From Pseudidiomarina aestuarii (GTDB taxonomy: Bacteria > Pseudomonadota > Gammaproteobacteria > Enterobacterales > Alteromonadaceae), in contig PYVG01000028.1 of the NCBI GenBank assembly GCA_003030745.1, positions 8,517-15,274 on the forward strand: a stretch of DNA of 6,758 nucleotides, written 5' to 3'. Positions within the stretch are counted from its first letter, which is position 1; every line of letters starts with the position of its first letter. A program made the translations under genes and the position numbers. Shown here piece after piece: positions 4,326 through 6,758 of this stretch. The notes under the pieces are model-generated. The model saw only the letters and a program-made list of their open reading frames with translations. It ran no database searches and had not been told where the DNA came from.

Positions 4326-4736
4326 TTACTCTAGTCTTATACCCATAGTCATGGGCGGGAAGACGTGCCTGATAATAACCTTGCTGTCATTCTCAAAAAC
4401 GATTTCAAGCTGATTCGAAGTATCTTCACCCAAGTAATCGGATTGCACAACTTCTTTGACCTTCATCGGAAGATCATTCGCTTGGAAGCGCTTATGAAGA
4501 TTCGTTGAATCGATTCTGTTTACCGACAAACTGAGACTTGGATATCGACCAGCAACCTCCACTTCACAGGGTTTAATCTCGAGGATCGATTGGTCGTTAA
4601 ATATTAAATTTATCTCTTTGCAAATCAGAAAGCCCTCGTTGGTATAATCCCGCCAAGCCGCATGAACTCGTTCGTGGCTTTCGCCAATTCTGATTTCGAT
4701 GAGGATCTTCTGTTCGAAAGCTATCGTTTCACTCAC
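4326..4736 (-). CDS. Hypothetical protein, 136 residues, second gene of an unknown pair
   Basis: I do not recognise this protein family. It has no signal peptide or membrane segment and reads as a soluble, mixed strand-rich domain: alternating hydrophobic stretches around ILIEIRIG (11-18), FLICKEINLIF (36-46), SILEIKPCEVEVAG (50-63) and KVIIRHVFPP (118-127). The ending VFPPMTMGIRLE looks like a conserved tail. The GTG start is supported by AGGG five bases upstream. The gene begins 44 bp after the stop of the 138-residue gene with no attC or terminator between, so the two are probably translated from one mRNA. Base composition is AT-rich like its neighbours. The clean coding frame and ribosome site argue that it is a real gene. 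Confidence 0.8.
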   Translation of the reverse strand: MSETIAFEQKILIEIRIGESHERVHAAWRDYTNEGFLICKEINLIFNDQSILEIKPCEVEVAGRYPSLSLSVNRIDSTNLHKRFQANDLPMKVKEVVQSDYLGEDTSNQLEIVFENDSKVIIRHVFPPMTMGIRLE

Positions 4737-4780
4737 AAATTCCCTGTTCCCTTGCCTATTTCCTATCTTTAAGCGTCTTT

Positions 4781-5197
4781 TTATACGGCATCTTGCAACG
4801 AAGCGTAGTTTTCTAGGTTCGACACCAGCTGTTCCAGTACTGATTCATTTATATAAGAACTGCCAAAGGCACCACTGTAAAATAAACAGCCCGAAAAATT
4901 AGCTTTAACTTTTATACCTTTGCTGGGCTTTACACCAAGAAAATGCAAATTAATCCTGAACCAACCCTTTTTGATTTTAACCTTTCCTTTATATCCCTGA
5001 TTTTTTATCTCGCGAAGTGTGCTGATTAATGAAAGTAGGGAAGTGTCCTTCAGCGGCGACAGCCATTCAACGTATTGTGAATTGGCACCTGCACAAAAAA
5101 CCAAGTATTCATTTTGTGTTACACCATTGATTTCCGTCTCACCGAAAGTGAATATGGCGTTATCAACTTTTATACGAGACTTGATAGTCTGAAACAT
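4781..5197 (-). CDS. Hypothetical protein, 138 residues, first gene of an unknown pair next to the cassette array
   Basis: Not recognised. The product is basic and soluble with strand-rich segments: AIFTFGETEING (14-25), EYLVFCAGANSQYVEWL (29-45), a helix near LLSLISTLREIKNQG (54-68), then a Lys-rich hairpin KGKVKIKKGWFRINLHFLG (70-88). The C-terminal helix, SVLEQLVSNLENYASLQDA, spans about 119-137. No signal peptide or membrane span is visible. The ATG at 5197 lies 24 bases after the core (5221-5227) of the attC-like site that ends the previous cassette, a typical cassette leader length. AGGA is present but 13 bases upstream. No attC follows its stop; instead the 136-residue gene starts 44 bp on. 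It is therefore either the first gene of a two-gene terminal cassette whose attC is lost, or the first resident gene beyond the array. Confidence 0.8.
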   Translation of the reverse strand: MFQTIKSRIKVDNAIFTFGETEINGVTQNEYLVFCAGANSQYVEWLSPLKDTSLLSLISTLREIKNQGYKGKVKIKKGWFRINLHFLGVKPSKGIKVKANFSGCLFYSGAFGSSYINESVLEQLVSNLENYASLQDAV

Positions 5198-5220: not shown

Positions 5221-5302
5221 TTATAACATTGGTCGGCGGGCGCGGATGAACGAAAGCGAAGCCTCATTGCAAAAATGGTCACCGAAACTGCTTTTGTTAG
5301 GC
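5221..5302 (-). other. attC-like recombination site of the 92-residue cassette
   Basis: Minus strand: core GCCTAAC (5302-5296), which contains the stop codon of the 92-residue gene, and opposite core GTTATAA (5227-5221), 82 bp overall. The TAAC/GTTA parts pair. Inside, GTTTCGGTG can pair with CGCCGACCAAT through a two-base bulge with wobbles, in the manner of attC stems with extrahelical bases. The left core departs from GTTRRRY at its fifth and last positions, so this site may be degenerate. This is the leftmost site I can support. Confidence 0.6.
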
Positions 5303-5575
5303 ATCGTTGGCAGCATACCGAATCAACCTCTCGGTAAGCTCCCTATTGGTTGGCCTTATACCGAGACTTCCGATCCAGCCTTCCAAAAAATCCCTTGCTA
5401 TGAAGACCTCTAAAAAATATTCAAACCCCAAGTGCTTTGCATGCGGTGGAACCAACCCATCGACGGGCTCTACCTCAACAATTGCGTCAGAACTAAAAGA
5501 CCACGGTGCTTTAACGTAAATCGTTAAATTTTCGTCAAGATCGTGAAAGGAACAAACCACCTGCTCGAGATTCAT
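5297..5575 (-). CDS. Integron cassette protein, 92 residues, possibly DUF7716-like
   Basis: A small acidic soluble protein. From memory it resembles short proteins common in integron cassettes and related DUF7716 proteins: an N-terminal TIYVKAPWSFSSDAIVEVEP (18-37), a central YFLEVFIARDFLEGW (53-67) and the ending ERLIRYAANDA (82-92). No enzymatic motif, signal or membrane segment is visible, and no function is known to me. The cassette structure is textbook: a GTTAGGC core at 5589-5583, seven bases (AATAACG), then the ATG. The stop TAA lies inside the next core, GCCTAAC. There is no Shine-Dalgarno between core and ATG, so translation probably depends on an upstream cassette transcript or a leaderless-like mode. 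Cassette identity is well supported; the family name is tentative. Confidence 0.87.
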   Translation of the reverse strand: MNLEQVVCSFHDLDENLTIYVKAPWSFSSDAIVEVEPVDGLVPPHAKHLGFEYFLEVFIARDFLEGWIGSLGIRPTNRELTERLIRYAANDA

Positions 5576-5582
5576 CGTTATT

Positions 5583-5656
5583 GCCTAACGCCTCTGCTAA
5601 CGAAAGCAACATCTTGCGATGTCAACCGATGATGGCTCTCTGACCTGGCGTTTGAT
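5583..5656 (-). other. attC site of the lipoprotein cassette
   Basis: A 74-bp imperfect palindrome. On the minus strand it opens with ATCAAAC (5656-5650) followed by GCC and closes with GGC then GTTAGGC (5589-5583), so AACGCC pairs exactly with GGCGTT. A perfect central hairpin, ACATC/TTGC/GATGT, lies at 5609-5622 (plus strand). The GTTAGGC core fits GTTRRRY fully; the opposite core deviates at its fourth base. The site follows the lipoprotein stop codon by 4 bases and precedes the next gene by 7. Length and architecture are in the normal attC range. Confidence 0.8.
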
Positions 5657-5660
5657 ATAC

Positions 5661-6056
5661 CTAATTAGGGCCATATTTGATATTTGCCTTTTCAACGATC
5701 AAAGGGATTTGTGATGCGAACCACTCTTTTTCCTTGGGTCCAAACGGCGTTATCTGACCATTTAACCTGTAATTATAAATAACGGCCTGATGGTGTTTTC
5801 GTGCCGAGAGCTGGTGCTTCCCGGAGTCATCTGAGACAACGAGCTCAAGCTGAACGCCTTTAGGCAAAAATAACAGTTCCGTTTTTTCTGCGTTAAAACG
5901 GATCTCGTTTTTTACATCAAGATTTGGAGCAGTGATATTCAAGAAGAAGTTATCTTCATTTATTGTCTGCCGATGTCCAGGCAAAGTAACGCATGCCGAG
6001 AGAACAAAAATTAGTCCAGATAGAATAAGCAGTCGGAGCTTAATTAACATCAACAT
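5661..6056 (-). CDS. Cassette-encoded lipoprotein of unknown function, 131 residues
   Basis: The first 22 residues form a lipoprotein signal: basic K6 and R8, hydrophobic LLILSGLIFVLSA and Cys22 in an LSAC lipobox. Residue +2 is Val, not Asp, so outer-membrane sorting by Lol is expected. The mature part (about 110 residues) is strand-rich and ends in a helix, KEKEWFASQIPLIVEKANIKYG (108-129); no known domain is recognised. The first ATG (6056) has AAGGA 6 bases upstream and is preferred over the ATG two codons on. It sits between two attC-like sites and has a longer leader (about 55 bases after the core) than the other cassettes, leaving room for its own promoter, although no convincing -35/-10 pair was seen. 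It could be a surface or envelope-protection factor, but this is not shown. Confidence 0.87.
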   Translation of the reverse strand: MLMLIKLRLLILSGLIFVLSACVTLPGHRQTINEDNFFLNITAPNLDVKNEIRFNAEKTELLFLPKGVQLELVVSDDSGKHQLSARKHHQAVIYNYRLNGQITPFGPKEKEWFASQIPLIVEKANIKYGPN

Positions 6057-6110
6057 CTACGTTCCTTGTTTATTGTTGTTGATCCAGAGTCTATCAGCAT
6101 ATTTCAACCG

Positions 6111-6155
6111 GTATAACGCAGGCCAGTATCCGTTGCTTTGCTAGCCGCGTTAGAC
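6111..6155 (-). other. Short attC-like site of the 152-residue cassette
   Basis: Minus strand: GTCTAAC (6155-6149), containing the stop codon of the 152-residue gene, to GTTATAC (6117-6111), only 45 bp. The arms are strikingly complementary: GTCTAACGC-GGCTAG against the reverse complement GTATAACGCAGGCCAG, with one extra base on one arm, like an extrahelical base. The inner unpaired loop is about 14 bases. Known attC sites are usually about 55-140 bp, so this is either a minimal site, a deletion derivative, or a coincidental palindrome around a genuine core. Confidence 0.55.
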
Positions 6156-6608
6156 ACTGATCAATTTCACCGTTGGTGGTCGTTCAGATACAACATCTAT
6201 GATCTGGTTGAGGCAACAAAAGCCATAGTGTATAAGCGGGCCCGGAAAATCCGCCGACGCTAATGTTGATTGGCTAATATAGTTCAAAAACGCTGACTCC
6301 GAATAAATTCGTGCAAGCCTGCCCTCGAAATCTCCGTCGCTGCTACCAGCATAGCTTTCATTCGTAACTGTATATGCTATGTAATCATCGAAGACAATTT
6401 CATAGCGGGCACTGTTGTCAGTCACCTCTATGCGCTTGCTCTCGATAAGTAACTTTCGTAGCGCCTCATTTGGCTCTTCAGCTGATGACATTTGCGGGGC
6501 GACGTCAGATACACCAGCTTCAGCTAGTACGATCCTGAGGCAGTCTTTATAAGTTTCTTGTATCTCAATCAAGTCGAGATACTTATGATGATTCATTGCA
6601 CTAAACAT
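6150..6608 (-). CDS. Integron cassette protein of unknown function, 152 residues
   Basis: An acidic, soluble protein without signal or membrane segments. The N-terminal half reads as helical (YLDLIEIQETYKDCLRIVLAE, then NEALRKLLIESKRIE). The C-terminal half is denser and looks conserved: ARYEIVFDDYIAYTVTNESYA (67-87), RIYSESAFLNYISQSTLASADFPGPLIHYGFCCLNQIIDVVSERPP (99-144). From memory, proteins with the FDDYIAY...NESYA and PGPLxHY...CLNxIIDVVS pattern recur as uncharacterised cassette or accessory proteins; no function is known to me. The ATG follows the GTTAGTC core by only 4 bases with no ribosome site; a second ATG at codon 5 (6596) is an alternative. The stop TAA lies inside the GTCTAAC core of the next attC-like site. 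Expression probably relies on read-through from the right. Confidence 0.87.
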   Translation of the reverse strand: MFSAMNHHKYLDLIEIQETYKDCLRIVLAEAGVSDVAPQMSSAEEPNEALRKLLIESKRIEVTDNSARYEIVFDDYIAYTVTNESYAGSSDGDFEGRLARIYSESAFLNYISQSTLASADFPGPLIHYGFCCLNQIIDVVSERPPTVKLISV

Positions 6609-6612
6609 GGAT

Positions 6613-6697
6613 GACTAACGCCGCGCTCAAACTCCGACCTTGTAATGGCGGTGAAGACGCAATGCAGTAAACGTCGCCATAACTGTCCTTGTTATGT
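6613..6697 (-). other. attC site of the cassette running off the right edge
   Basis: An 85-bp site from ACATAAC (6697-6691, minus strand) to GTTAGTC (6619-6613). The end GAGCGCGGC followed by GTTAGTC is typical of attC right ends. An internal stem is clear on the plus strand: ATGGC (about 6645) pairs with GCCAT (6676-6680), and GACG with CGTC nested just inside. The ACATAAC core contains the stop codon of a reading frame entering from the right, and the next gene starts 4 bases after the GTTAGTC core. Confidence 0.7.
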
Positions 6698-6758
6698 ACG
6701 TTGTCGAATTTGACCACTGAGTGTGCTCTTAACCAGCCGCGAATCAGGAGAGTATTTC
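6692..6758 (-). CDS. 3' tail of a further cassette gene (partial)
   Basis: The minus-strand frame entering at the right edge is open for 21 codons and stops at TAA 6694-6692, inside the ACATAAC core of the adjacent attC site. The visible residues end in KSTLSGQIRQRT. The other frame read from the last base stops after four codons. Stop-in-core is the usual way a cassette gene ends, which is the main reason to call this coding. The fragment is too short for any functional guess. Confidence 0.5.
   Translation of the reverse strand, partial: KYSPDSRLVKSTLSGQIRQRT

Follow-up and report, generated by a model that had tools for sequence, protein, structure and literature searches.

The DNA analysed here, referred to as the window, spans 6,758 nt in its entirety. 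All genes considered lie on the minus strand, and the order of the gene array at its right end runs from right to left. At the right edge, an open reading frame (6692-6758) runs off the window; it ends in ...SGQIRQRT, has its stop codon within the R'' box of the first of four attC-like sites, and is probably the next cassette gene. It is followed by P6, a 152-aa cassette gene (6150..6608) that starts 4 bases past the R' box of site 1, and by P5, a cassette gene encoding a lipoprotein of 131 aa (5661..6056) with the motif LSAC, which we take to be its lipobox. The next gene, P4 (5297..5575), encodes a predicted orphan immunity protein of 92 aa and starts 7 bases past the R' box of site 3. A 138-aa gene (4781..5197) starts 23 nt past the R' box of site 4 and is probably the last cassette, without a recognised attC of its own; the gap downstream of it held no attC candidate in the gap score test described below, and no homologue of it was found in 40 genomes, plasmids, phages and IMG/VR. 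To its left lies a 136-aa gene (4326-4736). The next genes encode a DUF2569 protein, a GAF-GGDEF protein, an antitoxin-toxin pair (Phd/YefM and ParE/RelE), a presumably S10-like peptidase, and a protein that we take to be glyoxalase-like.

The attC-like sites are all found on the minus strand. Site 1 (6613..6697), upstream of P6, consists of R'' ACATAAC (6691-6697) and R' GTTAGTC (6613-6619), site 2 (6111..6155, 45 nt) of R'' GTCTAAC and R' GTTATAC, site 3 (5583..5660) of R'' GTATATC and R' GTTAGGC, and site 4 (5221..5302), the last recognisable one, of R'' GCCTAAC and R' GTTATAA. When checked against the sequence, the sites proved to lie where an earlier, sequence-only reading had placed them. 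The check also bore out that the single genes in 5221-6758 share one orientation, that three stop codons lie within R''-like cores (6692-6694 in ACATAAC, 6150-6152 in GTCTAAC, and 5297-5299 in GCCTAAC), and that the 152-aa and 92-aa genes begin 4 and 7 bases past a core. The same reading had described all cores as GTTRRRY/RYYYAAC, which is too strict. R' GTTAGTC, R' GTTATAC, and R'' ACATAAC each carry one mismatch, R' GTTATAA carries two, and the R'' box of site 3 has lost its AAC, reading GTATATC where two homologous cassettes (loci L097 and L096) have GCATAAC. The core motif alone is not rare either, occurring at chance frequency in the window: exact RYYYAAC is found 18 times against 12.9 expected, a count reached by 21 of 200 shuffles.

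An attC score was used that combines the R''/R' core pairs with a term for the L''/L' stem. It was trained on sites of intI-bearing arrays from other genomes, the final training set comprising 130 sites, while the sites of two arrays, L070 and L097, were kept out of training for a test of the gaps between genes. On the minus strand of the window, the four sites rank as the best four (17.1-21.2, with site 2 at 21.2), with a fifth place outside the array (2562-2655) scoring 16.8, close to site 1. Two places on the plus strand reach 18.0 and 20.9, the latter being site 4 in reverse. Control DNA contains ~25 places per 100 kb that reach 17.1 and ~4 that reach 21.2, so that about two such hits would be expected in the window by chance. 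What exceeds chance is the arrangement of the sites and not single motifs or scores. With the held-out model, the gaps between P6 and P5, P5 and P4, and P4 and the 138-aa gene score 21.4, 19.5, and 18.4, respectively. A paired R''/R' core is thus present in all three gaps between cassette genes, against 2 of 179 control codirectional gaps scoring at least 17, where the control gaps take in the far sides of integrase loci and their two positives may be real sites. None of the six other gaps in the window holds an attC candidate, one of the six being only ~11 nt long and so below any control gap. In the held-out arrays themselves, scores of at least 17 are found for 10 of the 19 gaps in L097 and for 9 of the 12 in L070. 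Site 1 scores 14.7 with this model and offers no gap to score, as the gene upstream of it is cut by the window's edge. We also built a covariance model of attC, whose training sites covary strongly (0.468 versus 0.144 when shuffled); its best match in the window reached 11.3 bits (E 0.21), from a model that leaves out the loop and itself missed most sites of the held-out arrays.

The homologues of P6 and P5 place these genes in integrons elsewhere. P6 has 82 homologues besides itself, some of them assigned to Pseudidiomarina, Shewanella, Microbulbifer, and Thalassolituus. Nine loci were found in the genome collection, six of them gammaproteobacterial with 75-79% identity. In five of these six (L001-L004 and L006; absent from L005), GTTAGGC lies upstream of the homologue, where it matches in position the R' box GTTAGTC of site 1, and in four of the six the stop of the homologue coincides with GCCTAAC. 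Integrases above the cut-off are encoded in three of the nine genomes; one lies near the gene (G003) and another on the same contig far away (G002). In the Microbulbifer array L070, the P6 homologue lies ~5.4 kb from an intI gene matching at 411 bits. As for P6 itself, there is only a suggestion of an immunity-like fold (PIM7-like, as in polymorphic-toxin immunity). A more distant homologue (42%) was seen in an Acaryochloris bin (L007, 3473-3966), with GTTAGGC before it and an attC-like match after it (18.8 bits, E 0.055).

P5 has 41 homologues besides itself. One of them, at 64% identity, lies within the array of L097, ~4.7 kb from a 412-bit intI, and the start of the cassette is nearly identical in the two loci, reading GTTATGCCGGTTGAA in L097 and GTTATACCGGTTGAA in the window. 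The L097 array begins after intI and genes that we take to be atpC, glmU, and glmS. Another homologue (70%) is found in genome G831, where both intI genes lie on other contigs. As their homologues occur in intI-bearing arrays and the cassette boundaries are conserved, P5 and P6 are taken as cassette genes.

In their R boxes, the window sites score as genuine attC sites do, but the stem scores are low at all four (3.9, 3.3, 0.4, and -3.5, the last two belonging to sites 4 and 1, respectively); stems of at least 7 are seen in 18 of the 19 recognised gaps of the two held-out arrays. When the recombined strand was folded, the core was paired only at site 2, with three core pairs and a z of -2.15, and remained unpaired at sites 1, 3, and 4 (z 0.1, -1.15, and +1.64). 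Among the 130 reference sites, 73% pair the core and the median z is -3.2, figures favoured by the partial selection of these sites by stem score. Recombination is reported to be controlled by the shape of the unpaired central spacer (UCS) and by extrahelical bases (PMC2727003). Given the low stems, the folding of one site in four as an attC, and the AAC lost at site 3, the sites of the window are regarded as eroded (sites 1, 3, and 4). The likeliest account is decay at the distal end of an array, decay instead of a different geometry being what we infer here, and judging from fold and score, the cassettes are probably fixed and no longer exchanging. The sequence-only reading had held that the regularity of the locus is hard to explain without integron-type cassette exchange. 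Of this, a cassette origin stands for the 152-aa and 131-aa genes, given their homologues in arrays that carry intI and the conservation of the cassette starts. The notion of an array still intact and exchanging does not, with low stems, three of four sites unfolded, and one R'' box lost.

P4 was found in no second integron. Its sole close homologue (72%) is encoded on a metagenome contig of 945 bases, and its status as a cassette gene therefore rests on its position between sites 3 and 4. The protein has no Pfam match at E 1. It matches the viral PHROG family phrog_27390 (E 1e-18), yet a tblastn search of phage records returned nothing at E 0.01. More is learned from relatives at 31-46% identity, found in 11 records of the plasmid collection, of which six were viewed in their surroundings, one of these without annotation there. 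In Lonsdalea (L104), an HNH gene with matches to Colicin-DNase and WHH immediately precedes the relative. In Enterobacter (L105), the relative overlaps with the end of an rhs gene, the product of which matches WHH and Colicin-DNase at its C-terminus. Two Vibrio campbellii plasmids (L106 and L116) carry it amid S-type pyocin and immunity genes, and on Cupriavidus plasmid pMOL30 (L107), no toxin is annotated beside it. Further relatives are present in 2 of 295 genomes of one order: in G182 (L112), the gene comes after a SUKH gene and another that resembles Imm26 with a score below the cut-off, and in G292, the scanned neighbours matched nothing telling.

Weak matches to DUF7716 (PF24832) point from these relatives to an immunity-protein family: five of the nine members of alignment A5 match it at E up to 1 (best E 2.7e-5), and three of the five, those with scores listed, reach 14-21 bits, below the cut-off of 26. 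According to a report of May 2026, Salmonella Tennessee has a DUF7716 protein that neutralises a WHH DNase in E. coli and is protective in competition assays (PMC13224477). From relatives at this distance, P4 is probably an immunity gene of a DUF7716-like family directed against WHH/colicin-DNase toxins. It is called an orphan because no toxin is recognised beside it, its neighbours P5 and the 138-aa gene matching no toxin family. The earlier description of all payloads as being of no known function is thus not right for the 92-aa gene, and the suggestion of accessory functions holds in part, for functions in conflict. It could instead be argued that P4 is a small accessory protein whose relatives lie near toxins by happenstance, a view that concerns P4 alone and is compatible with any account of the array. 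The weak family scores and the Cupriavidus relative would fit such a view, yet in two cases the relative adjoins a WHH nuclease domain or overlaps with it, others sit in toxin and immunity clusters, and one DUF7716 member has been validated as an immunity protein (PMC13224477), which makes it doubtful.

Considering the locus as a whole, we regard it as fairly probable that the window ends on its right in the distal, eroded tail of a chromosomal integron array, in a host that is probably gammaproteobacterial, with P4 as an orphan immunity gene. The genes would once have been captured by an integron integrase acting on folded attC sites, as the homologues of P5 and P6 suggest, and the attC stems would have decayed afterwards. 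The array would end at or just past the 138-aa gene, and the genes further left, with no recognisable attC in their gaps, look like ordinary chromosome. P4 would probably bind and block a DNase of the WHH type (HNH/ENDO VII) delivered by a competitor, whether of Rhs, T6SS, or pyocin type, with binding deduced from its relatives, and would thereby protect a cell that encodes no partner toxin beside it.

The erosion itself could be read differently. If the geometry of the attC sites were divergent and escaped both score and fold, the array, or a cluster of attC sites lacking an integrase (CALIN), might still be active and its cassettes mobile, as the largely kept R boxes at all four sites and the proper folding of site 2 would allow. 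Yet the stems fall below those of nearly all recognised gaps in the held-out arrays, and the R'' box of site 3 is without the AAC that both homologous cassettes have, so we consider a still active array unlikely. A far less probable alternative is that no integron is involved and that small codirectional genes, acquired by other means, happen to form a run with motif-like gaps. The chance frequency of the single motifs, together with control DNA yielding equal scores several times per 100 kb, would favour such a coincidence. It would leave unexplained the homologues of two of the three genes, which are cassettes with conserved boundaries in intI-bearing arrays, and three positive gaps out of three against the 2 in 179 of the controls.

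Among known systems, the sedentary chromosomal integrons of the Vibrio type, here represented by L070 and L097, share with the window cassettes that hold one gene each and point the same way, R boxes where genes end and start, and payloads common to several genera. The window differs in its eroded attC stems, in having no integrase, attI, or Pc in view, and in that the recognisable sites end inside it. A CALIN likewise has attC-like sites between small genes and no intI in view; the window sites differ in being missed by our own covariance model, itself insensitive, and the comparison refers to the window and not to the whole genome. With regard to P4, the DUF7716 immunity protein of the RhsA-HNHc WHH DNase of Salmonella Tennessee (PMC13224477) resembles it in that relatives of P4 weakly match the same Pfam family and two of them follow the same nuclease class. 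P4, in contrast, has no toxin partner, lies in an integron array, and is not matched by the Pfam model. Immunity genes kept without their effectors are also reported from the T6SS orphan immunity arrays of V. cholerae, which arise by effector displacement, whereas the carrier here is a gene cassette (PMC5361080). That paper likens the V. cholerae arrays to integrons and states that there is no evidence for an integrase (PMC5361080).

Immunity genes were also found in other integron arrays. Nineteen arrays were searched, of which one (L077) gave no open reading frames, and a Pfam scan was made of 120 open reading frames located before or between the attC sites of the remaining 18, including some on the opposite strand that are perhaps not genes. 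The scan matched 51 Pfam families, and among the matches listed (25 of the 51) were at least one Barstar and at least one Imm-NTF2-2 open reading frame. The Barstar cassette (L073, 203-529) lies between strong sites scoring 30.8 and 28.4, ~200 bases from the contig end, and the Imm-NTF2-2 cassette (L082, 12992-13312) between strong sites of 31.1 and 34.6. A second Imm-NTF2-2 gene (L118 in genome G612, 6115-6312) adjoins intI and has one site, scoring 34.4, after it. Six other open reading frames near the L073 and L082 cassettes matched no toxin family at E 0.01. Barstar genes occur in 6 of the 19 genomes, in five of these elsewhere than in the fetched array. The same scan showed TIR, SEFIR, and CAP12/Pycsar-type TIR domains, possibly phage-defence cargo. 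Integrases above the TIGR02249 cut-off were present in 137 of the 369 genomes of the class sample, a higher share than expected.

For most genes in integron cassettes no function is known, and cassettes for antibiotic resistance and phage defence are already known. Tentatively, and with somewhat less than an even chance of being right, it could be speculated that integrons keep, in a mobile store, orphan immunity genes that act against competitors' toxins, with P4, perhaps P6 and P5, and the Barstar-like and Imm-NTF2 cassettes elsewhere as examples. Such a role would parallel the known resistance and phage-defence cassettes and would extend protection beyond drugs and phages to the toxins of neighbours. 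The assignment of P4, together with three further cassettes of immunity families among the few arrays sampled, offers a testable role for a share of this dark cargo, and the erosion of the sites suggests a route by which cassettes may turn into fixed chromosomal genes. In a literature search among open-licence papers, none turned up that deals with orphan immunity genes carried as integron cassettes. Xanthomonas cassettes are reported to carry toxin-antitoxin genes, in a paper whose main text does not contain the word "immunity" (PMC12444791).

Toxin-antitoxin cassettes are likewise known from the V. cholerae integron (PMC11551772). In the window, the Phd/YefM antitoxin and ParE/RelE toxin genes (1933-2458) lie beyond the last recognisable attC-like site, and the gaps flanking the pair hold no attC candidate. 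At its 3' end (1933-1956), the ParE/RelE-like toxin gene carries 24 nt that are 83% alike to a stretch just past the stop codon of the 138-aa gene (4756-4779); this second stretch could be the remnant of a toxin gene or a site that has eroded.
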